32,412 nt of DNA. Source: a virus. Each line of letters opens with the position of its first letter. Positions within the stretch are counted from its first letter, which is position 1. Below are positions 2,012-23,370 of this stretch, one piece after another. The notes beneath the pieces are model-generated. The model was not told the DNA's origin and did no database searches. It was given only the letters and a program-made list of their open reading frames with translations. The position numbers and the translations under genes were made by a program. Location: positions 1 through 32,412 of IMG/VR virus record IMGVR_UViG_3300025099_000082. One strand, written 5' to 3'.

Positions 2012-2515
2012 TTAAAACACCCAGCCGTTAAAGAGTGCATCCTTATCTGGATATATATCCTCGTTATTGTTAGTGTAGTACTCAGGGAATAAAGATGATG
2101 CGTTAAAACTCATGTAATCTATAAATCTATTGGCATAGTACTCAGCATAATCTCTTTCCTTTGCTATCAATATATCAATCTCCGTTTTCTCCGCTAACTG
2201 ACTATTCTCACTTGTATGTTTGTATACACCTCCATTAGCAACTGTATAGGCAGCAAAAGGAAGATATTCACTCATTGCGAAATGGATTAACATAGGCTGA
2301 ATATAGTCATTGACTAAATTTAAATAGTCTCCTGCCAAAGTATCTGCAATTATATCAGCACTAATCTTATTGTATAAATCCGTTCCAAGGTAATTTCTAA
2401 CATGAATCTCTTGGGCTAGTTTAATAAACTGTATAAACTTATCAGTATCTACATTACCACTAAGAGCTGTATTCTTTACTAAATCTTGACGTTTTATAAA
2501 TAAAGCTGTAGCCAT
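2012..2515 (-). CDS. Putative head-tail connector/adaptor-like protein
   Basis: This 167-aa, mainly alpha-helical protein begins MATALFIKRQDLVKNTALSG. Residues about 25-45 give FIQFIKLAQEIHVRNYLGTD, followed by IQPMLIHFAMSEYLPFA. The pattern of helices ending near a YYTNN tail resembles small structural proteins of Bacteroidota phages (I recall the DUF6712 type) encoded just after the portal, where HK97 gp6-like connectors usually lie. Its ATG overlaps the portal stop by one base (TAATG), implying translational coupling. Structural role is likely; the exact connector position is inferred from gene order. Confidence 0.5.
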   Translation of the reverse strand: MATALFIKRQDLVKNTALSGNVDTDKFIQFIKLAQEIHVRNYLGTDLYNKISADIIADTLAGDYLNLVNDYIQPMLIHFAMSEYLPFAAYTVANGGVYKHTSENSQLAEKTEIDILIAKERDYAEYYANRFIDYMSFNASSLFPEYYTNNNEDIYPDKDALFNGWVF

Positions 2516-3768
2516 TATTCTTCTTCTGTTTGGGGTTCAACTTCTGTTTGTTGAGAGTCCTTCTTAACACCAGTTTCTTTCTCTATTTCAGACTCGGTAA
2601 CTGCGTTAGTTAAGTCGGTGAATTCAAGAGGTTGTAATGTCTTAAAGTACACATCTAAATCTATATTGTTGTATTCAAGTATTCTTTCCAATTCATCAAG
2701 AATAGTAACCTGCATTGGTCTTATAACGGTATTATCCATCAATACTGATGCTGTCTGAAGCTCCTCTGCATTATTACCAAGACCAGAATTATCTTTAATC
2801 CCTACAAGCATTGGAGATACAATTCTATGGGACACCATAACCTTTTTCATGGACTCATCAGAAAGGAACTGGTATTGTTGATGAGCATCCGTAAGTTGCA
2901 CGGGTTCTATAGTAGCCGCTAATTCTTTACTGTCATTAAAAGCTAAGATAAACTTACCTGCGTTTGAACTGCCGCTAAATTTATTGTATATAGCTCTTTC
3001 TATTTCATCTCTCTGCTCCTTATCTGGGACTCCATTATTGAAGTTGATAAGCATCGATGGTGCAAGACCATTCTGAATGTTGTTTATATGGTAGTTTGCT
3101 ATTTCTTCTTCAAGTTCCGCATACTGTAGCCCTCCTTGATAATCTACAGGAGAGTAGTAGTAAAAACCTGCTCTGTAGGGTCTGATGTATAGAATTTCTA
3201 TGCCTTGGTTTGAAGTGCCAAAAGCAGGAATGCGTTTAGGTTTATCACTCGGTTTTATGTTAATCCAATCAGAAGAATAGTAGTACGCTTTTATCTCACC
3301 ATCATTAGAAACCTTCTCAGCTCTCAATGTTTCGATTGGCATGTGTTCTACTTGAACAATTTTACTTCTATCCTTACTATATATTACCTGAACAGCAGCT
3401 TGTCCCATCATCTTGTAATCGTAGCATACTTTCTTCATGCAATCCTTCCTAAGTAGCTTTTTCATCTCAGCATACTCAGTAGGTTTATCTTCACTATCTG
3501 TGGCATCTAATCCCTTACCGTATATCATTTCTGATATTCCATTTACAGAAGCATTGTTGGTTGGAGACCCATTATACCTATCTATTAGATAGTCAAAGTA
3601 ATCGTTCTCATCTCCATACTCAACCCAATCATTCCTGCCATTCTCACTGACCTCTGGTCTACTATAAGATGACAATCCTATAACGTGGATAGATTGCTCC
3701 ACCTTTTTTACTATTGAATTCACGTTGGCTCTATTTCTTGCCATTTTGATTGATTTATTCTTACTCAT
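2515..3768 (-). CDS. Portal protein
   Basis: This 417-aa protein matches the portal pattern of flavobacterial siphoviruses. The N-terminal region contains WVEYGDENDYFDYLIDRYNG followed by NNASVNGISEMIYGKGLDA. The central part has YYSPVDYQGGLQYAELEEE and ENYH-type segments ending NGLAPSMLINFNNG, with a typical stem/crown region after it. Residues about 290-330 (DAHQQYQFLSDESMKKVMVS, then HRIVSPMLVGI) match the SPP1/PBSX-type portal C-terminal core. Portals form the dodecameric DNA channel at one capsid vertex and dock terminase. It is coupled to both neighbours by TAATG overlaps. Oddly, it lies about 18 kb downstream of the large terminase and after the major capsid gene, whereas portal usually precedes protease and capsid. 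Confidence 0.82.
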   Translation of the reverse strand: MSKNKSIKMARNRANVNSIVKKVEQSIHVIGLSSYSRPEVSENGRNDWVEYGDENDYFDYLIDRYNGSPTNNASVNGISEMIYGKGLDATDSEDKPTEYAEMKKLLRKDCMKKVCYDYKMMGQAAVQVIYSKDRSKIVQVEHMPIETLRAEKVSNDGEIKAYYYSSDWINIKPSDKPKRIPAFGTSNQGIEILYIRPYRAGFYYYSPVDYQGGLQYAELEEEIANYHINNIQNGLAPSMLINFNNGVPDKEQRDEIERAIYNKFSGSSNAGKFILAFNDSKELAATIEPVQLTDAHQQYQFLSDESMKKVMVSHRIVSPMLVGIKDNSGLGNNAEELQTASVLMDNTVIRPMQVTILDELERILEYNNIDLDVYFKTLQPLEFTDLTNAVTESEIEKETGVKKDSQQTEVEPQTEEE

Positions 3769-4193: not shown

Positions 4194-4745
4194 CTACACT
4201 GCCCTTTGTGTAGAAGGGGTGTCAGTAGCAGAAGTCATACCTACGAATGGGTCAGCAGTAGTAGCTCCATCAACAAAATTAGGCATGGTGGTCTCATTTG
4301 CAGTAAGAGTCAGAGTATACCCCTGAAGGTCTCCCATTGCAGTTCCACTAACCATAGTACCTCCAGTTACTTCAGCACCATGTTCTCTCCCTACAAGAAG
4401 AAGGCTTCCGTCAAAAGTTTCTAGGAAAACATGAGGTCTTCCGTATGCCATTAACTTTAATTCCTTATTATCTTCTTTACTTAGTTTGTGTAGCGTTACA
4501 TTTACTACTTGTTCAAAGAATGTTGTTCCATTCTCTAAAGAACTTTGAATATTTGTCTCTAAGGAAGAATTACCTTTAACATCGTAAGTGTGATAAGTAA
4601 AAGTACCACCCATATCTGTAACTTCATCATTAGAACCAACAGTAACAGCTCCTAAATCTCCGAAATCTACAAAATGAATTTTTCTTATACCACCTACAGC
4701 ATCTTTACATGGTTTTAGTCTCCCACCAGTTAAATCACAACTCAT
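4194..4745 (-). CDS. Conserved structural protein, possibly major tail tube protein
   Basis: This 183-aa protein starts MSCDLTGGRLKPCKDAVGG and continues with KIHFVDFGD. A central segment, VKGNSSLETNIQSSLENGTT, leads to FFEQVVNVTLHKL, followed by GRPHVFLETFDG and GTAMGDLQGYTLTLTANE. I recognise this arrangement from structural proteins of Bacteroidota phages. The beta-rich composition with Gly-containing turns fits a tail tube or decoration subunit. It lies between two terminator hairpins, directly after the capsid gene, which suggests its level is set separately. Tail tube is the best guess; a head decoration protein is the alternative given its position. Confidence 0.5.
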   Translation of the reverse strand: MSCDLTGGRLKPCKDAVGGIRKIHFVDFGDLGAVTVGSNDEVTDMGGTFTYHTYDVKGNSSLETNIQSSLENGTTFFEQVVNVTLHKLSKEDNKELKLMAYGRPHVFLETFDGSLLLVGREHGAEVTGGTMVSGTAMGDLQGYTLTLTANETTMPNFVDGATTADPFVGMTSATDTPSTQRAV

Positions 4746-4820: not shown

Positions 4821-5777
4821 TTAGATAGAGTAAAGTACAACATCTCCACCAATTCCATGTTGAATACCTGCGGTATATCTCATAACGATTCTTACGTTTT
4901 GAGACCCATCGATATCAGCCATATCAATAACTTTAACTTGGTTATGGTCAGATAGTAGACCAGTTCCAAAGAACAAGTTAGACTTCTCAGCAGCAACCAT
5001 TTTGTTGCTTGGTAGACCTTGCGCCAACTCTACGTTGATACCATCAAATGTCAATGCTCCTCCGTTGAACCATTGAGTACCTTTGTTGTCAGTACCATTA
5101 GCTCCTGCGTTTGAAGCGATACTTCCGAATCCACCTAAAGCTCTTACATAAGCTCTATATACGTTAGAAGCAACATAGATAGTTAAGTCTTCTTTTCCGT
5201 ATACAGTAGATGGAATTAAATCTGCAGTAGCTCCAAGCTCTTGGATTACGTTAGCAGCAGTTACAGATGTTTCAGTAGTGGTAACATCATTTACGTCTGA
5301 ATCAGCTCCTAAAGTAGTAAGGAACCCATCAAATTCACCTGCAGTTGCGTTAGTGCCATTCCATACAGTTTGCTCTACTTTTTGAGCTACTTTGTCAGCT
5401 ACATGAGCAATCAAGAAATCAGAGAAATTTGGGGGTAGGTCACTGTAAGCAGAATATCCCATCTGAACCGCTTCCCAGTCAGATACAAAATCTTTTTTAC
5501 AAAGCTCCAAATTTACTTGAAATTCTTCAGGTTGTAGGATTCTCTCACTCAAAGCGAGTACTCCTGTTGATTTAGTGAAGTCACAAGTTGCATCAGCTAC
5601 AATATCGCCAGATACAGCTTTCTTTAGTACTTCTTTAAATTTAACATTGGGTTTAATCGTAATTAGATTATTAGCCAATGTTGAACCACTCAATAGGGCA
5701 GCAGAAATATATTTTCCTGCAAACTCCCCTGCATAAGTAGTGGTTATCGGTGTGGTTAAACTTTCGCCTCCTGCCAT
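4821..5777 (-). CDS. Major capsid protein (HK97-fold type)
   Basis: This 318-aa protein follows a scaffold-like gene by 26 bases. It has an N-arm region (GGESLTTPITTTYAGEFAGK, then YISAALLSGSTLA), a long helix region (PPNFSDFLIAHVADKVAQKV then EQTVWNG, typical of the HK97 spine/P-domain), and a C-terminal part with GIQHGIGGDVVLYSI. LSERILQPEEFQVNLELCKK is of a type common in Bacteroidota phage capsid subunits. No protease site can be named. The leader upstream is A-rich without a Shine-Dalgarno, as in highly expressed Bacteroidota genes, and a strong hairpin follows, both consistent with the most abundant virion protein. Confidence 0.85.
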   Translation of the reverse strand: MAGGESLTTPITTTYAGEFAGKYISAALLSGSTLANNLITIKPNVKFKEVLKKAVSGDIVADATCDFTKSTGVLALSERILQPEEFQVNLELCKKDFVSDWEAVQMGYSAYSDLPPNFSDFLIAHVADKVAQKVEQTVWNGTNATAGEFDGFLTTLGADSDVNDVTTTETSVTAANVIQELGATADLIPSTVYGKEDLTIYVASNVYRAYVRALGGFGSIASNAGANGTDNKGTQWFNGGALTFDGINVELAQGLPSNKMVAAEKSNLFFGTGLLSDHNQVKVIDMADIDGSQNVRIVMRYTAGIQHGIGGDVVLYSI

Positions 5778-6365: not shown

Positions 6366-7223
6366 TTATGGACAACATTCATTGAATGTAAATTCTCGAT
6401 AGAAATTACTTCCACTTGAACCTCCAAAAGACAAGTCTTGAATATCACAAGGGTTCAATAGATTGTTTCCACTCACTTCATAATTCCTCACTTCTACTGC
6501 TCCAGCATTACCACTTGCATTGTTTTGAGTGTTTTTCATATATATTGTGTTGGTGCCAGAATATAATAATGATGGGTCAAATCTATGGATAACCATCCCC
6601 CCTATAGGACAGGTAAAGTCAGCTTCAGTTATAACCAAATCAGTGTTGGTTGAAGCTATAAAGACAGAGCCTATCAGTTCATTAGAATTCAAATCAACAT
6701 CGCCTATTTTAGTGCCATTTAGATATATATCGAAGTTATCGTCTGTAACGGAGTTTGAATTGCATATTTGGAATACTAACACTCTATCAGGGCAACTTGG
6801 AGCAGGGTCTCCCTCTGGGTCTAATACCTCTGAACTTAAAGCAGTACATTCAGCACAATCATCAAAAGGTATGCCTATTGACGTTATAATCTCAACACCC
6901 TCAAAGTTTCTTTCTTCATTTACAGTATAACACCCTTCTTGACCATTCTGTAAGGTCATGTAATAGGTAGTTCCAACATTTAAAGTTCCATGATAATGTG
7001 CGTTTTTATGGTGTCCATCGTCACAGTTAGTTATACGATAAGCTGAGTGCCCTGCGCTAACAGCAGGAGCGGAATTTGTAACGACACCTATTCCTTGAGC
7101 TTGTAAACTCCCATCGCAACATTCCGTTGAATACGTTTTTCCATCTGGGCATAGACAAGCTCTCCTATCGTTTTTAGGTGATGTTCTACTGTAGGTAAAT
7201 TTTCTTCTTCTTCTTCTAATCAT
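6366..7223 (-). CDS. Cys-rich structural protein (CLCPDG/ECCDGS motif)
   Basis: This 285-aa protein has a basic N-terminus (MIRRRRRKFTYSR). A Cys-rich motif follows at about residues 23-42, RACLCPDGKTYSTECCDGSL then QAQGIG, which I recall near the ends of structural proteins in flavobacterial phages. The C-terminal part, with NFDIYLNGTKIGDVDLNSNE and GMVIHRFDPSLLYSGTNTIY, looks like a beta-sandwich or carbohydrate-binding-type domain, and the protein ends ECCP. At least a dozen Cys residues suggest metal or disulphide stabilisation. ATGA overlap with the protease stop shows coupling. Its place between protease and scaffold suggests a head decoration or fibre, but this is inference. Confidence 0.5.
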   Translation of the reverse strand: MIRRRRRKFTYSRTSPKNDRRACLCPDGKTYSTECCDGSLQAQGIGVVTNSAPAVSAGHSAYRITNCDDGHHKNAHYHGTLNVGTTYYMTLQNGQEGCYTVNEERNFEGVEIITSIGIPFDDCAECTALSSEVLDPEGDPAPSCPDRVLVFQICNSNSVTDDNFDIYLNGTKIGDVDLNSNELIGSVFIASTNTDLVITEADFTCPIGGMVIHRFDPSLLYSGTNTIYMKNTQNNASGNAGAVEVRNYEVSGNNLLNPCDIQDLSFGGSSGSNFYREFTFNECCP

Positions 7224-8728
7224 GCCTTCCTTGATTTTGGGTGTTTCTTAGGTAGCAAATCATAATCCGTTGTGTACTTTGGATTCTGAGGTCTACCGTT
7301 CTTTATTAAGTATAGATAGGCATTAACCCTTGCAAAAGCCCACTGAGAAGCTGACCTAACTTTAGGGCTATGAGATGTGTTAAAAGCTCCAAGACCACGC
7401 TGAAAAACAGAGGCAAGGACACCAGTAGTAACACCATAACCCAATTTACTTTTATATTTCTTATTGAATTCATCAGATTTCTTTTTAAGTGATGCTTTGT
7501 CTTTAGCAGATACTTTAGCTCCCGTCTTTCCAGAAGCGTCTCCTTTAGCAGAACCCTCACCTTTAGGACTCTTATTAGGAGTGCCTGACTTGGGAGCTTT
7601 AGGACTTTTCTTTACATTACCCTTACTATCAACTTCAGCAAGTGTATGTTGCTTACATGGCATATACCAAGTTTTACCATCAAGTTCATGCTCATGATGC
7701 CCTTCGCATCCTAAGTCTTTAGCAGCTTTTTCTGCCATTTCTTTTGTAGAAAATGCTAACCTATCGTTTATAACAGCATAATCATCATCTATAACCATAG
7801 ATGCCATCTCTATTTCACCAAGACCTCTTAATTTACTTCTACTCCAAGAAAGTGCCGATAATCCACCCCAAGCATCATACATTAACTTGCCACATCCATC
7901 AGAATAGCTCTTAGAAGCCTCTAAATCGCTTTTGTGACGAGAGAGGAAGGAGTACATCCTTTTTATAGTAGACACCGTTAAATTGCTTCTAGAGGCTAAT
8001 TGGGAGGCTCTGCGTTTTCCTACAGCAGTTCCACAAGAACCCCAACCATTTTCATCAACGTATTTTAACACCTTCTTAGCGTTGTTTGACACAGACTCAG
8101 GGTAATCGTTAAATGTTTTTAGTTCGTACTTCTTTGAGTCAAGGAAGTCTTGTACCTCAAAAAGAATCTCTGTAGCTTCATTCTCGTTTATGTGGTTTTC
8201 TATCTTGGACATCTCAAGTTTATCAGTGAAATACCCCTCTATAGAGAATCCTTTTACTAATCCTGTTTTAACGTAGTTCTCCCACACTTCATCATTATTT
8301 ACCTTCATAGAAACCATCCAAGTCCCAACTGGCATATCCAGTCCATACTTTCTGCTTTTATCATGAACATCATCTTCTATAATCCAACTCTCTACTACAC
8401 TAAGCCCATTGAGTTCAGCTTCATGTTCCAATGTAGATTTGTTTTGATTACCCCTCATCAAGAATAATTCACTTGCTTTTCTTACAGTATCGTCAGAGAA
8501 ATAAATGTAGTATTCATCCTCTCCATCTGTACGATAAATATTCTTATTAGGAATTAGGGCAGCACCCATTAAAATACGTTTCTCCTTATCTATCTCAGCA
8601 AGATTAACTTTTGTTTGTTCTTTTAGGGCAATGAAGTTTTCTTCTATTGCAGGTTTATCTACAATAGATATAGCTTCTATTCCTGATAGTAAAGCATCTT
8701 CATCAATAAGTAATTCTATAATTCTCAT
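7220..8728 (-). CDS. XkdF-like prohead maturation protease with long C-terminal extension
   Basis: This is a 502-aa protein. Residues about 50-170 match the XkdF/Peptidase_S78_2 prohead protease pattern: RILMGAALIPNKNIYR, STLEHEAEL with the candidate catalytic His at 102, DMPVGTWMVSMKV, and GLVKGFSIEGYF with the candidate Ser at 162. The protein then continues. Residues about 205-300 form a domain with ENGWGSCGTAVGKRRASQLA, SRHKSDLE and SDGCGKLMYDAWGG. Residues 325-362 contain EGHHEHELDGKTWYMPC. A K/S/P/G linker spans 368-420. A terminal module has QRGLGAFNTSHSP and WAFARVNAYLYLIKNGRPQN. Typical prohead proteases are about 200 residues, so the extension is over half the protein. It would cleave scaffold and capsid; the extra domains are unknown. 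Confidence 0.78.
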   Translation of the reverse strand: MRIIELLIDEDALLSGIEAISIVDKPAIEENFIALKEQTKVNLAEIDKEKRILMGAALIPNKNIYRTDGEDEYYIYFSDDTVRKASELFLMRGNQNKSTLEHEAELNGLSVVESWIIEDDVHDKSRKYGLDMPVGTWMVSMKVNNDEVWENYVKTGLVKGFSIEGYFTDKLEMSKIENHINENEATEILFEVQDFLDSKKYELKTFNDYPESVSNNAKKVLKYVDENGWGSCGTAVGKRRASQLASRSNLTVSTIKRMYSFLSRHKSDLEASKSYSDGCGKLMYDAWGGLSALSWSRSKLRGLGEIEMASMVIDDDYAVINDRLAFSTKEMAEKAAKDLGCEGHHEHELDGKTWYMPCKQHTLAEVDSKGNVKKSPKAPKSGTPNKSPKGEGSAKGDASGKTGAKVSAKDKASLKKKSDEFNKKYKSKLGYGVTTGVLASVFQRGLGAFNTSHSPKVRSASQWAFARVNAYLYLIKNGRPQNPKYTTDYDLLPKKHPKSRKA

Positions 8729-8738
8729 AATTTATTAT

Positions 8739-10745
8739 TTAAAATGCAGCGATATTAACTGTTTTATCTGCAATGTTATTATAGGTTTCTAAATCATCCC
8801 ACACTAAATTAACTTTTTGTTCTTCTCTTGTTCTTGCTACAGCCATACTAAGCTGAGATGTTTCTGACGCTCCCACTACATTAAAGTCAGGTGCTTCTAC
8901 CGATGGAGCAGCTCCACCTACACCGCCTCCACTACCACCACCACCAGGTAACTTGGTTGCTAATATTTTTTTCACTTGAAGAAATCCAAAAGCCGCAGTA
9001 GCTGCTGCTTGAGCAATATTCCATGGTCCGTATGGTTTAGCTCCAAGAGCAGCAGTAACAGCCTCATAAGTGTTAATGGTAGCCATAGCTACAGATACAG
9101 CTTTACCTAAAGCACTACCTTCCCCTGCTATTGCAGTTATAGCTTGTGCGACATAGTTAGCGGTGGCTAATTTAGCATCTGCTTCATCTCGGTCAATTTT
9201 TTTATTTGTCTCAGCTAAAGCTTCTTTCGCATTAGTTATTTGTTGTTCTATACCAATAGTTTCTTCTCCCGCTACAATAGCTGCTGTTCTTTGCCTTTCA
9301 AGGTTATCTAAGACTGTTTGGGTTTTTGCCTCTTCTAATTGTCGTTGAATATCTATTCTATCAAAATCATTACGAGCCATGGACATCTCAAACTTTTCTT
9401 GAGCAATAATCCTTGCATTTAATTCCTTTTCGAGTAATTCCGTTGCTTTATCTAAATCCTCTAACTTTCGTTGATTTAATTTTCGACTTGTTTCGGTATC
9501 TATTTGTATTAAATACTCATTAAGTGATGTTCTTGAATCTGCTATGGCTCTGTCAGCAATTTTTTGTGCTTTGGCTCTATCATCAGCATTTTTTATTGCA
9601 TCTACCCTTTGCTGTTGCCTTTCTGCAAAATCTCTTTGCTTTAATTTAGCTATTTCCTTCGTGGCATCTGCCTCCGCTTTAATCTCTATATCTTTATTAC
9701 TCACTAAAGATTTAGATATTCTATTATCTGATTCTATTATTTCTTTCTCGAAATTAAGCTGACCTGCTACAAAATCCCTCCTTGATTCTTTGTTCTTTTT
9801 CTGTTGTTTTTTCCTGTCTAAACCGAGGTTTATTTCGAGTTTCTTTAAATTATCCAGAGCTTCTTCATATCGTATTACAGCTATAGTTTGGTCATCTTGA
9901 AGCTGTGTTAATTTCTCGGCATCTCCTTCTTTTGTGGCTTTGTTTATTTCATCCCTTATAATTTTTAATTCCTCTAATGCTCCTTTTTCTGCAACCCTTG
10001 CATCTACGAGCTCATTATATTTTAGCAGGAAGTTGTTTAGAGAAGCTTCATCTGTTTTATCTATCTTCAAGAATTCAGCCGCTTTCTCTATTTCTGGGAA
10101 TTTATAGATTAACCTATCATATGTTTTTACTAATTGGTCAAATCCAAGATTAGTTCTCGCCCTTATAAGATTCAATTCTTCAAATAAACCTGCTTGGTCT
10201 CTCAGTGACTGAGTTGCATCATCTATTTTCTTTTTGAATTCATCGGCAGCCTTTGAGCTTCCCATGAAAAAATCGTATATATCGTCACCAAAAGCAATTA
10301 GTAATTGAACAGCAATTAATATACCTCCAGTACCAAGTAAACTCTTTCCTAATTCTTTTAAGGAATTTACAACTCCACCTGCTGTTTTACTAAAACTAAA
10401 AAATAAACTAACAAGCTGACCTAAGTTGTTAGCCATGCCTTGAAATCCATAGGCAGCATCAGAAGCCAACCTCGAACCTTCTAAAAGTATAGCATTATTT
10501 AATCCTGCTTGTGCTCTAAGTGGTTTTCCTGCATTAGCTACTTTTAACTGTTCTATTGCTTGTTCTCTAAATGAAGCGGCAACCGAAGCATTTGTTATTT
10601 TTAATTTTTCAGCCTCAATTCTTTGTATTTTTTCAGCTTCGGTAAGCTGACTTAAATCTTTAGTAGTTTCTTTTACCGAATCAGAAACTTTTTTAGACCC
10701 CGTTTCGTCTACTCTAACCGATATTATAACAGATTTAGTTGCCAT
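8739..10745 (-). CDS. Tail tape measure protein
   Basis: This 668-aa protein is dominated by long amphipathic helices and coiled coil at about residues 160-540, rich in Lys, Glu, Ala and Gln. Hydrophobic segments occur near residues 110-160 (SLLGTGGILIAVQLLIAFGD) and 535-595 (Ala-rich, with AMATINTYEAVTAALGAKPY). A Gly-rich linker sits at about 600-612, followed by a short C-terminal region. This is the classic tape-measure layout, and the YEAVTAALGA stretch before a VKKI helix is common in Bacteroidota phage tape measures. At the usual 0.15 nm per residue it predicts a tail of roughly 100 nm, if unprocessed. Its start overlaps the end of a 48-codon gene. Confidence 0.82.
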   Translation of the reverse strand: MATKSVIISVRVDETGSKKVSDSVKETTKDLSQLTEAEKIQRIEAEKLKITNASVAASFREQAIEQLKVANAGKPLRAQAGLNNAILLEGSRLASDAAYGFQGMANNLGQLVSLFFSFSKTAGGVVNSLKELGKSLLGTGGILIAVQLLIAFGDDIYDFFMGSSKAADEFKKKIDDATQSLRDQAGLFEELNLIRARTNLGFDQLVKTYDRLIYKFPEIEKAAEFLKIDKTDEASLNNFLLKYNELVDARVAEKGALEELKIIRDEINKATKEGDAEKLTQLQDDQTIAVIRYEEALDNLKKLEINLGLDRKKQQKKNKESRRDFVAGQLNFEKEIIESDNRISKSLVSNKDIEIKAEADATKEIAKLKQRDFAERQQQRVDAIKNADDRAKAQKIADRAIADSRTSLNEYLIQIDTETSRKLNQRKLEDLDKATELLEKELNARIIAQEKFEMSMARNDFDRIDIQRQLEEAKTQTVLDNLERQRTAAIVAGEETIGIEQQITNAKEALAETNKKIDRDEADAKLATANYVAQAITAIAGEGSALGKAVSVAMATINTYEAVTAALGAKPYGPWNIAQAAATAAFGFLQVKKILATKLPGGGGSGGGVGGAAPSVEAPDFNVVGASETSQLSMAVARTREEQKVNLVWDDLETYNNIADKTVNIAAF

Positions 10746-15407: not shown

Positions 15408-15980
15408 TTATTCTATAATATATTCGTCTCCTTTTTTAGTGTAACCTGCCATCTTGAATATTTCGTCTAAATTCAAATTGATATCCTTTGCTATTGGGTC
15501 TGCTATAGAATTTATTTTTTGCATCGCAATCTCAATAGCATCGTCTATGAAATTAGCGGGTCTTATTCCTTCCCTTCTTATTTTATTCTGGATGGCAAAT
15601 GCTAATTGTTTTATTCTGTATTGTCTATCTTTAACTTTGGCGAACTTACCAGCGGCATCTTTCAACTTTACAGGCTTACTTTTTATCCAAGGTATCAACT
15701 TGCCTGTAGAAGGAGGTGTGCCAGATTTTCTGCCTTCATCAACTGCCTTACCATATTCCAATCCTTGAATATCATATGAAAATCCTGAATCCGTTTTTTG
15801 ATACATTGATTTAAGACTTCTTGCCAATTCTCCTGTATCATTAATTTTTCCACTATAGCTGCCTCTTGAACCGCTTCTTGTTCTGTTACGCTCTAATTCA
15901 ATACGCAGAAGCTCAACCAATCTCTTAGAGAATGATTTCATGTAGGCATCTGTATTTTTGAATTTAGTAACTATAGACAT
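15408..15980 (-). CDS. HK97 gp10-like tail/neck completion protein
   Basis: This 190-aa basic protein has a helical N-terminus (SFSKRLVELLRIELERNRT), then a segment typical of the HK97 gp10/tail-completion fold: DTGELARSLKSM, then YDIQGLEYGKAVDEGRKSGT and KLIPWIKSKPV. These proteins sit in the head-tail interface and help join or complete tails. Its start overlaps the preceding gene by ten bases, a place where gp10-like and tail-terminator genes usually pair. The C-terminal 60 residues (RPANFIDDAIE) match the family's end. Confidence 0.68.
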   Translation of the reverse strand: MSIVTKFKNTDAYMKSFSKRLVELLRIELERNRTRSGSRGSYSGKINDTGELARSLKSMYQKTDSGFSYDIQGLEYGKAVDEGRKSGTPPSTGKLIPWIKSKPVKLKDAAGKFAKVKDRQYRIKQLAFAIQNKIRREGIRPANFIDDAIEIAMQKINSIADPIAKDINLNLDEIFKMAGYTKKGDEYIIE

Positions 15981-16462
15981 GAGCTTCCATCAGCGTTAAT
16001 TAGTGCCATATCATTATTGGGGACTTCTATATTGATAACCATTGACCAACCAGTGAGCAGATTCTCGAACCTATCCTCGAACAAACTCGCAGTTGCAGCT
16101 TCATTAAGTTCAAAGTCATTCGTTTCCATGCCACCTCTACGAAGTGAGCTTTGCAATCCATTAACAACAGTAAGCATTGAATTAAGAATATCTTGTTTGT
16201 TATCCAATCCCAAGTGAGGTTTTGCCACCCCTTGTTTATCGTCTTTATCTTCATCTACAATATCCATCACTATAACATTCATCGAAAAGGTCATCTTAAA
16301 TTCATCGAAAGTGACATCGTTTACATTAACATGGGCAAGTGGGAATATTGTCTGTTTAGACAAGTCTACCTCCATGATATCACCGAATGTTACGGTATTG
16401 ATACTATTGTTGCCAATTAAATAATTGTAGATATTGTCAATAAGGTTATAATATGTCTTCAT
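15971..16462 (-). CDS. Putative tail terminator/completion protein
   Basis: This 163-aa protein starts MKTYYNLIDNIYNYLIGNN. It then has FPLAHVNVNDVTFDEFKMTF followed by SMNVIVMDIVDEDKDD, and ends with NLLTGWSMVINIEVPNN. The alternating helix and strand layout with an aspartate-rich loop resembles tail terminator or minor tail completion proteins that cap the tail tube. Its ATG overlaps the stop of the frameshifted tail chaperone product (TAATG), and its 3' end overlaps the gp10-like gene, so all three are translationally coupled. Family assignment is by position and fold pattern. Confidence 0.55.
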   Translation of the reverse strand: MKTYYNLIDNIYNYLIGNNSINTVTFGDIMEVDLSKQTIFPLAHVNVNDVTFDEFKMTFSMNVIVMDIVDEDKDDKQGVAKPHLGLDNKQDILNSMLTVVNGLQSSLRRGGMETNDFELNEAATASLFEDRFENLLTGWSMVINIEVPNNDMALINADGSSCL

Positions 16463-17225
16463 TATTTCTTATAAGCTTTTTTAATCATCTGAGCTTCTAA
16501 CTGATTCTTTTCCTTTTCAAACACTAAATAGTTTAAACACTTAAAAAGCTCTTGTGAGGTAACGTCATCGAACTTGAGGACATCTCCTTTAGCAAGTGCG
16601 TAAATTGACTGATACCAACCCCACTTTGAGCTAAAGTTTCCTTGAGCTGAGAGGTCTGTGGATTCTTCCGCATCTCCATCTCCATATAATTCAGGGTAGC
16701 TAGAGACAACTCCTTCCCTAAAGCGTAAAAAAAAACCATCGCTCCCATTACAACATCCATCGGCATCTCTTTTATGAGATTCTGAATGTCCTCATTTGGA
16801 GAGTAAGGAGCAATGGTATACTTATCCTTAGACTTGAAATTAACTGGTCTGAAAAGCACCGCCATGGCTTTGTGCATTTGTTGCCAATCAGAAATAGTAT
16901 TTTCTAAGTCTATGTATTCTCCAAGTGAGATATCATCAAGTTTAGGGATAAACCCCATTTCAACATCAAGAAGATTAAAGTGCCTAATCAAACTAGGTTT
17001 TTCTTTAAATGCTTCTCCAAGGATATTTATAACCTTCTCTGCCTCTACCATCGGTATCTGTTCTACATCACGCAATGTAATGTTACAGAATATTTCAATG
17101 AGCTTCTTATTTAGAAATTCATCTGCTCCCTCGTTTTCATCTGATACCTTAATGTACTTTTGGTATTGCCCAAGAGTAATATCATTTAGAGTTGTTGGAA
17201 CTTCTAACTCAATCTTTTTTCTCAT
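16462..17225 (-). CDS. Tail assembly chaperone, -1 frameshift (gpGT-like) product
   Basis: If the ribosome slips back one base on the nine-T run (minus strand, 16735-16727), 166 zero-frame residues join 88 residues of the -1 frame, giving about 254 aa. That frame is open from the slip to a TAA at 16464-16462 and has no ATG, GTG or TTG near its start, so independent initiation is unlikely. It reads like protein: SSKWGWYQSIYALAKGD, then LFKCLNYLVFEKEKNQLEAQ and MIKK, which I recall as the usual second half of this family. Its stop overlaps the ATG of the next gene. Lambda G-GT and relatives use the same strategy. Alternative: a one-base error or indel in the T run. Confidence 0.72.
16533..17225 (-). 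CDS. Tail assembly chaperone, zero-frame (gpG-like) product
   Basis: This 230-aa protein starts MRKKIELEVPTTLNDITLGQ. It has helical regions with FLNKKLIEIFCNITLRDVEQ, LDDISLGEYIDLENTISDWQ and MHKAMAVLFRPVNFKSKDKY. Near residue 150 is MPMDVVMGAMVFFYALGKEL, then LNYMEMEMRKNP. This pattern is one I recall from tail assembly chaperones of Bacteroidota phages. The gene is first in the late operon. The codons for VFFY include a run of nine T where a -1 shift would give the longer product listed separately. The protein would bind the tape measure during tail assembly and is absent from virions in the well-studied lambda example. The 64-residue zero-frame tail is the less conserved part. Confidence 0.75.
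   Translation of the reverse strand: MRKKIELEVPTTLNDITLGQYQKYIKVSDENEGADEFLNKKLIEIFCNITLRDVEQIPMVEAEKVINILGEAFKEKPSLIRHFNLLDVEMGFIPKLDDISLGEYIDLENTISDWQQMHKAMAVLFRPVNFKSKDKYTIAPYSPNEDIQNLIKEMPMDVVMGAMVFFYALGKELSLATLNYMEMEMRKNPQTSQLKETLAQSGVGISQFTHLLKEMSSSSMTLPHKSFLSV
16727..16735 (-). other. Slippery T9 run (candidate -1 frameshift site)
   Basis: Nine consecutive T on the minus strand, read in zero frame as GTT TTT TTT TAC. A single-base backward slip re-pairs perfectly with TTT and leads into the 88-codon open frame. Polymerase slippage at the same run could also mix frames. No downstream pseudoknot was worked out. Confidence 0.7.
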
Positions 17226-21368: not shown

Positions 21369-21403
21369 TAAAAAAAAAGGGTATCATCTCTGACACCCCT
21401 TTA
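21369..21403 (-). terminator. Intrinsic terminator after the 21425 gene
   Basis: Minus strand hairpin AAAGGGGTGTC-AGA-GATGATACCCTTT with a run of T; the mismatch-containing stem still closes with AAAGGG/CCCTTT. Directly precedes the next promoter. Confidence 0.75.
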
Positions 21404-22028: not shown

Positions 22029-23240
22029 TTATTTTACAATATACATTCCTTTCGGCACTGAACGAGTCAACATATACTGCACACAATAACGTAATGAGTC
22101 GATAAGGTGATTGTAGGAATCAATAGGTTTTATGCCATTTACAGCCCAAGCATAGTTATTGAACTCTTTGATTAGGTTCTCCCCTTCTATATTTATAGTA
22201 TAGTCTTGCATGAGTGCAATACCAGACAAGATACTACCTTTCTTTTTTATTGTAGGGCTTAGATTTAATCCTCTGGTGGACAATTCAGCAATAAGCCTAG
22301 GCTCAGAGTTGTCGCAGATAATTAGTTCTTTTCCTGCGTGTCTTACACATTCATCATATAGATTAGAGGTAACCAATCCTTTTTTATATAGATATTCCTT
22401 TGCCCAGATTATTTTTCTATCTTTGTCAATAGCAACCTTTACAAGGGCTGAGGCATCTCTGGAGAATCCCCAATCCAATCCCCATGCCTTTAAATCTATA
22501 CCCTCATTGAATTGTCCAATCTGCCAGTCAGTGAAGATTACACCCTCTGCTTTCTGTAGCCAACCTCCCATTATCTGATGCTTGAATTTATCAGGTCTGC
22601 GCACCCTCATCTCCTCCAATTGATTTACGAACGACCCACTTAAATTCTCAATGTTATCTTGGTAGGTGGTATGGATATAGTTTACGTTATTCCTTTCTCC
22701 ATTGAATCCATCTGGTATATCTCTATTCTGATAGAACCTCTGATATATCCAGTGTTCTTTTGTGGTGGGGTTTAGAATTAACAAACACCGATTCCTTACA
22801 CCTTTAGCACGAATAGAGTAATCTATTTTATCAAAGCTTTCTTCATCAGTAAGCTCCTCCGCTTCATCCAACACGAAAGTATTGACCCCACTGATAGATT
22901 TAAGTTTGGCAGTCTGGTCTCCACTTGCGGTTCTAATTCCTGAGAAATATATAGAACTGCCTGTTAGATTGTTTATAATCTCATATTTGGTAACAGTGAA
23001 GTGTTCGATGACTCCCATCAATTCTAACTTCTCAATGAATTCAGGGATAATACTCATACTCGCTGAACTCATAGTATAACGAGTAAACAATATTTTATTG
23101 TTCTTTTCGTAAGTGAGCAACACTAGGAAAACTGTTACTGCGAAAGATTTACCTGAACCCCTACCTCCAGTAATCACATTGTATCTGCTATCTGAATCGA
23201 ACAGAGATTGGTATTTAGGATTTAGATTTACTTTATTCAT
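22029..23240 (-). CDS. terL: Terminase large subunit
   Basis: I start at the ATG at 23240, giving 403 aa; a GTG four codons upstream is also in frame. The ATPase part shows Walker A GGRGSGKS at residues 25-32 and Walker B FVLDEAEE at 122-129, with the following LILNPTT as motif III-like coupling segment. The nuclease part has the three acidic positions of the RNase H-type fold: GLDWGFS (D256), LIICD (D310) and HLIDSLRY (D381). This matches the PBSX-type terminase_3 large subunit (ATPase motor plus headful or cos cutting). It overlaps the 45-aa gene by eight bases and ends its operon. It lies about 5 kb from the first late gene and far from the portal, which is unusual. Confidence 0.92.
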   Translation of the reverse strand: MNKVNLNPKYQSLFDSDSRYNVITGGRGSGKSFAVTVFLVLLTYEKNNKILFTRYTMSSASMSIIPEFIEKLELMGVIEHFTVTKYEIINNLTGSSIYFSGIRTASGDQTAKLKSISGVNTFVLDEAEELTDEESFDKIDYSIRAKGVRNRCLLILNPTTKEHWIYQRFYQNRDIPDGFNGERNNVNYIHTTYQDNIENLSGSFVNQLEEMRVRRPDKFKHQIMGGWLQKAEGVIFTDWQIGQFNEGIDLKAWGLDWGFSRDASALVKVAIDKDRKIIWAKEYLYKKGLVTSNLYDECVRHAGKELIICDNSEPRLIAELSTRGLNLSPTIKKKGSILSGIALMQDYTINIEGENLIKEFNNYAWAVNGIKPIDSYNHLIDSLRYCVQYMLTRSVPKGMYIVK

Positions 23241-23370
23241 CCTTCTTATCACGTTTACCCCAAACGTTCGATGCAGGTTTCACATAGTATCCCAATATTG
23301 GATTCACTAAGTAATTCCAAAAGTCCTGTGGGAAATCCTTTGGGTCTCTAATCTGTTTTGCTCTCGCCAT
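23233..23370 (-). CDS. 45-aa small protein between terminase subunits
   Basis: An ATG at 23370 opens 45 codons: MARAKQIRDPKDFPQDFWNY then LVNPILGYYVKPASNVWGKR, ending KDE. It overlaps the 3' end of the small terminase gene by 23 bases and the large terminase start by eight. Trp-, Pro- and Tyr-rich with no known family. Since it fills the otherwise unexplained stretch between the two terminase genes, a role in packaging or as a small adaptor is a guess. Confidence 0.55.
   Translation of the reverse strand: MARAKQIRDPKDFPQDFWNYLVNPILGYYVKPASNVWGKRDKKDE

Follow-up and report, generated by a model that had tools for sequence, protein, structure and literature searches.

Can a run of nine T residues inside a phage tail-region gene serve as a signal to change reading frame, and if so, at what level does the slip take place and what are the two resulting proteins for? 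The question is raised by a stretch of 32,412 nucleotides (positions 1 to 32,412 of the IMG/VR virus record IMGVR_UViG_3300025099_000082), referred to here in its entirety as the window. From the letters alone, an initial annotation had proposed that a tail assembly chaperone is encoded with a -1 frameshift on nine T. It chose the right gene without stating its strand: the gene lies on the minus strand of the window, with its ATG at 17225. The T9 run occupies 16735-16727 on that strand, is the sole T9 of the region, and is kept across homologous sites. Around it, the zero-frame codons read ATG GTT TTT TTT TAC, with the in-phase slippery heptamer T TTT TTT at 16734-16728. Read without a shift, the gene ends as proposed, at a stop at 16535-16533, to give a G-like product of 230 aa (16533-17225, minus strand) that comprises a common N-terminal part of 166 aa and a zero-frame tail of 64 aa and that matches PHROG 32199 (E=5e-22). 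If T16728 is read a second time, translation continues through TTA CGC TTT AGG to a TAA at 16464-16462. This -1 extension (16462-16728, minus strand) adds 88 codons past the slip, yields a fusion of 254 aa exactly as first suggested, and forms a GT-like C-terminal domain with the motif F..KWGWY.SIYALA.GD.

The -1 frame had been described as reading like conserved protein, and it is indeed conserved among 36 aligned relatives. It was also correctly seen to have no start of its own, as no ATG, GTG or TTG occurs in its conserved part in the window, and to overlap the next gene, since its TAA shares one A with the following ATG (TAATG, 16462). That next gene encodes 163 aa (15971-16462, minus strand) and matches PHROG 30964 (E=3e-13). 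One detail needs correction. The frame was said to begin exactly at the T9 run; 88 codons do lie past the slip, but the frame is already open from 16791 and spans 109 codons in all.

How widely is this arrangement shared? A search of IMG/VR with the zero-frame part alone retrieved 80 loci, among which every complete site carries the T run except that of locus L048. The set was grown to 451 loci by means of profiles of the common part (A1) and the -1 part (A2), L048 itself and the distant C-terminal part, and Bacteroidota genomes were searched for this set as well; locus L247, as an IMG/VR query, returned no relatives. Both parts are held by 448 loci, which represent 357 distinct sites and include relatives as distant as about 20% identity. 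All 448 have the C-terminal part in the -1 frame, with no same-frame case among them, and searches with the N-terminal part alone found it always in -1 wherever the contig ran on. For the -1 part, 340 of 357 sites lack a start codon; only 17 have an ATG ahead of codon 30. The family includes the cultivated Nonlabens phage P12024L and bacterial contigs of 3.9, 4.3 and 5.2 Mb. The phage of the window is a marine Bacteroidota phage with hundreds of relatives that share a recoded tail-region gene; the Bacteroidota setting named by the initial annotation is strongly supported. Judged from comparative sequence, -1 recoding is confirmed as conserved at exactly the T-run site.

Could the two frames be an artifact of the run itself? 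Homopolymers are error-prone, and the concern that the run had been misread was voiced at the outset: with ten T there would be one continuous frame, and the gene in the window would be either misread, through a fault of sequencing or assembly, or broken. Such an error is ruled out, with a negligible residual chance, because the T9/-1 arrangement recurs across relatives from many metagenomes, in an isolated phage and in Mb-size contigs. Against it also stand a homopolymer-free clade with an identical -1 arrangement and a zero-frame tail that is protected from stops. Replication slippage in the run, which would make the gene phase-variable between its forms, is very improbable. While homopolymers are easily mutated, the run lengths are 9 or 10 only, and no T8, T11 or in-frame state was found in 357 distinct sites; the extra T of T10 is a substitution inside the codon pattern, and every locus stays -1. 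Phase-variable homopolymer genes differ in showing on/off length variation.

Is the run kept for its slipperiness or merely for the residues that it encodes? Comparing homologous loci for the T run and the -1 frame, a check that the initial annotation had proposed, bears out the conservation of both. T9 or T10 with an in-phase TTTTTTT occurs at 354 of the 357 distinct sites (exactly nine at 313, ten at 41), with no T7 or T8 run among these 354, and the remaining three, which form one clade, have A AAT TTT in the same place. A canonical in-phase heptamer of the form X XXY YYZ is present at each of the 357 (T TTT TTT at 354, A AAT TTT at 3). Relative to the frame, the run lies in phase 1 at 297 sites, phase 2 at 38 and phase 0 at 19. 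Elsewhere in the same phages, 706 other genes (446 kb) hold no other run of T9 or longer. Synonymous shuffling predicts about 7.4 such runs in 446 kb, the only two hits being the frameshift gene itself, and shorter runs in other genes are depleted as well (T7, 30 against 57 expected; T8, 4 against 15.6). Since runs of T9 or longer are absent from 706 other genes yet present at 354 of 357 sites here, chance is excluded. Every run-bearing representative uses TTT, never TTC, for both Phe codons of the site, whose third positions are silent in frame 0; TTC accounts for 28% of Phe codons upstream in the same genes. The codon before the Phe pair always ends in T. The TTT-only Phe codons, together with the absence of T9 elsewhere, therefore argue for selection for a slippery site. 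By these counts, the T run is a selected slippery site that goes beyond coding needs.

At what level the slip takes place is addressed by the one clade that has replaced the run. In L048, L249 and L250 (61% identity to L048), the site reads GTA AAT TTT AT(T/A) TA(T/C) CGT TTA, and the longest T run is T4. Here the codons after A AAT TTT vary synonymously (ATT/ATA, TAT/TAC), but the heptamer itself does not change. A AAT TTT is a textbook -1 ribosomal heptamer that RNA polymerase cannot read by homopolymer slippage. By parsimony from this clade, slippage elsewhere in the family is probably ribosomal too, through U UUU UUU. The T9 sites thus likely slip mainly on the ribosome, where tandem tRNA-Phe would slip by -1 on U UUU UUU. 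No conserved RNA hairpin was found 3' of the site (z = -0.45 in the window, averaging about 0 across 80 loci), and as a Shine-Dalgarno-like stimulator upstream, GGAG occurs in 14 of 138 cases against 3 in control stretches and is not general.

Alternatively, the host RNA polymerase may slip on T9 and add one U in part of the transcripts (U10), leaving the ribosome to act only in the A AAT TTT clade. Bacterial transcriptional slippage occurs on nine A or T (PMC5009743), many genomes show selection against homopolymer runs at nine (PMC1088944), and dnaX offers a precedent, being recoded on the ribosome in some bacteria and by RNA polymerase in others (PMC1088944). Transcriptional slippage reads through 9A or 9T in Thermus dnaX, Shigella mxiE and IS elements (PMC1088944), and those genes, like 354 of the 357 sites here, have two overlapping frames linked by a run of nine or more. 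Seven Ts would also be enough for the ribosome, yet lengths of 7 or 8 never occur: the run measures 9 or 10 even where it has slid against the frame (phases 1, 2 and 0). This length has another explanation, in that each T outside the heptamer is demanded by hydrophobic residues in either frame (V/L/I, Y/W, Leu); T7 and T8 being depleted in other genes too, there is no sharp threshold at nine. The constant nine was considered as proof of polymerase slippage and rejected, since the outer Ts are needed for hydrophobic or aromatic residues in either frame. Unlike the 9A/9T slippage genes, the L048/L249/L250 clade has a canonical ribosomal heptamer and no run, and with no T run above T4 polymerase slippage is unusable there. 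Polymerase slippage, which the initial annotation had mentioned, therefore remains live for the T9 majority, where we consider it possible if on the whole doubtful, and cannot serve the A AAT TTT clade. A fuller version, in which RNA polymerase slippage is the main way of reading the T9 sites, one clade has switched to ribosomal A AAU UUU and both C-termini are functional, seems unlikely; if true, it would make the two recoding levels interchangeable within one phage gene family. The choice between ribosomal and polymerase slippage becomes testable in a single gene.

What, then, becomes of the ribosomes that do not shift? The frame reading of the initial annotation was right about -1 recoding and missed the selection on the zero-frame tail. 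In 137 diverse loci, synonymous codons of the -1 frame were randomized and zero-frame stops were counted over the first 45 codons. Past the slip, 4 zero-frame stops were observed against 259 ± 10 expected, whereas stops in the third frame showed little depletion (626 against 660); in the distant clade, none was observed against 44 expected. Synonymous conservation over the overlap is 0.81, 0.67 and 0.65, compared with 0.46 upstream. The tail past the shift measures 64 codons in the window, has a median of 62 over the 137 loci and ranges from 25 to 90 in the family. On the strength of this stop avoidance and synonymous conservation, the DNA past the slip (16533-16728 in the window, minus strand) is dual-coding, with two alternative C-termini that are both under selection, and zero-frame ribosomes are meant to read on for some 60 codons. 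Beyond about codon 12, the zero-frame residues are no more conserved than those of the third frame, and therefore it is openness, not sequence, for which selection is evident. A loose need, such as a helical or soluble tail or the avoidance of early termination, and a specific domain are equally possible. This suggests that the short chaperone in these phages has its own tail and not a mere stop.

Frameshifting of the G/GT type is general in long-tailed phages, with a ratio of about 30:1 in λ (PMC5009743). The frameshift gene resembles λ gpG/gpGT, HK97 and P2 E/E+E' in that one tail-module gene would give a short protein and a longer -1 protein, the heptamer has the form X XXY YYZ, and the -1 part lacks its own start (PMC5009743). 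It differs in its shift site, a nine-T run or A AAT TTT, and in the length of its overlap: the G/T overlap of λ is 19 nt (10115-10133) and P2 E stops 20 nt past the shift (19685/19705), compared with a selected zero-frame tail of 64 codons in the window. A short zero-frame tail is a common, not a strictly defining, feature of G/GT, and it is one that the frameshift gene lacks. With its -1 recoding confirmed, the system is unusual among known G/GT pairs in its nine-T site, the natural replacement of the heptamer and the unusually long dual-coding overlap. It provides a large and deep Bacteroidota tail gene family in which selection for recoding can be seen, at a near-invariant nine-T site, in one clean swap to a different canonical heptamer and in a long stretch open in two frames. 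Among the papers searched, none treats this frameshift in Bacteroidota phages, which does not prove that no such paper exists.

Taken as a whole, the best explanation of the locus, to which we assign a probability of about 0.72, is that it makes two proteins by a mainly ribosomal -1 shift and that they form a tail assembly chaperone pair of the G/GT type. Most translation would stay in frame 0 and produce the 230-aa G-like protein, while a minority would shift by -1 at T9 and produce the 254-aa GT-like protein, its last 88 residues drawn from the -1 frame. The common part would coat the tape measure protein, as in λ G/GT, and the -1 domain would recruit the tube subunit at low ratio, as λ GT does. 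By analogy, a tail assembly chaperone is most likely the function, because of the G/GT logic, the position among the structural genes, the adjacency to a tape-measure-like ORF at the distant locus L372 and a fold relative in Flavobacterium phage 6H. The chaperone proposed by the initial annotation is hence plausible by its G/GT strategy, but no significant homology to a known chaperone supports it. Neither part has a significant sequence match among Pfam, NCBIfam and PDB chaperones, a PDB fold search gave no match, and profile comparison with λ G and P2 E gave no hit; there is no detectable sequence or fold relation to the λ, HK97 and P2 chaperones. Weak matches were seen to Phage_TAC_7 (E=0.038, in 3 of 81 members) and to the BFVD "tail assembly chaperone" A0A8S5V8Z8 (E=0.072). 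Known tail assembly chaperones differ greatly from one another. AlphaFold2 predicts the common part (residues 1-178) as a mixed, mainly helical fold (pLDDT 95.5, pTM 0.88) and the -1 part as helical (pLDDT 74).

The fold relative, AGN89393 (191 aa) of phage 6H, lies upstream of a tape measure gene and matches the N-terminal part with a Foldseek E=8e-5, at a TM-score of only 0.38, and an hhalign probability of 82%. Other members of its PHROG, whose profile covers 293 positions, are probably one continuous frame. In 6H itself (L461, 10352-10927) the 191-aa ORF stops while the profile runs on to 293, the continuation seemingly lying in another frame, and the gene seems to be split, frameshifted or mis-sequenced.

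Genome context bears on function as well. The large terminase, portal, tape measure, XkdF-like protease and probable capsid genes of the window are all on the strand of the frameshift gene. The large terminase (22029-23252, minus strand; PHROG 2, E=2e-47, TIGR01547) lies upstream, and the 668-aa tape measure protein (8739-10745, minus strand; PHROG 1538, E=1e-8) is encoded downstream with five genes in between, so that, unlike in λ, HK97 and P2, the frameshift gene does not adjoin it. A G/GT gene would be expected between the tube protein and tape measure genes. The portal gene is at 2515-3768 on the minus strand (PHROG 33693, E=3e-91). In P12024L, L374 and L375 the frameshift gene comes directly after the large terminase, and in L372 it comes directly before a tape-measure-like ORF on the same strand. 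The product could instead have a structural or connector role and include a minor form extended at its C-terminus, comparable to the low-copy extended capsid and tail proteins of Listeria phages cited in PMC4493119. The adjacency to terminase and the lack of significant homology to known chaperones would fit such a role, which we nonetheless hold to be rather improbable: candidate capsid (4821-5777; a weak PHROG virion-structural match) and tube (4194-4745; no named family) genes lie elsewhere, and G/GT logic better accounts for a small, mostly helical protein with two dual-coded tails that exclude each other.

Between 2515 and 16462 (minus strand) the structural genes of the window follow an unusual order, from the gene after terminase through neck-like genes, tape measure, protease, capsid-like and tube-like genes to portal, and L374 keeps this order in part. 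The 502-aa protein at 7220-8728 (minus strand) combines an XkdF-like protease domain (PF14550) with DUF3721 and DUF5824. The other A9 of the window (21370-21378) is intergenic, situated directly ahead of a terminator-like GGGTATCATCTCTGACACCCC stem.

The consequences for annotation are illustrated by the Nonlabens phages P12024L and P12024S (P12024L_40/_41, PHROG 32199), which carry a homologue with 31% identity, T9 at the same site and the C-terminal part in -1; in P12024L the zero-frame tail is only about 25 codons, compared with 64 in the window. Gene callers can split or truncate the frameshift gene, leaving the -1 domain absent from annotation. In P12024L (L082, 9001-9695) it is divided into two unrelated hypothetical proteins, _40 and _41, and the -1 domain is missed.

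Do relatives exist in which both parts share one frame? In BFVD, seven proteins with lengths of 226-267 aa (A0A6J5N0W0, A0A516L5A8, A0A6J5SVK3, A0A6J5MY57, A0A6J7WDG4, A0A6J5N3F3 and A0A6J7XA66) match both the N-terminal and C-terminal models, some of them weakly. From these model matches, one-frame versions of both parts probably exist outside the frameshift family, an indication that, over long times, frameshifted forms give way to fused ones and the reverse. Homologues with both parts in one frame, which the initial annotation had named as counterevidence, thus seem confined to remote structural relatives, and they do not refute recoding within the family because 448 of 448 loci there are -1.

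In one Bacteroidia family, 27 of 101 species also carry distant homologues, which align to the main family with a probability of 98.9% at 24% identity. Without exception their run is exactly T9, offset by one base relative to the frame (GCT TTT TTT TTR). These loci may be a mosaic, a remnant or a domesticated tail module. The distant homologues L372 (6402-9971), L373, L376 and L344-L371 sit among host-type genes, and the neighbors in Bacteroidia genomes, named by eye, are lipoprotein, SusC/SusD-like and lumazine-synthase-like genes. Scattered beside the homologues are tail-like ORFs, one tape-measure-like (726 aa) and others of 117, 181, 156 and 540 aa, and one Bacteroidia genome carries two homologue copies 27 kb apart.
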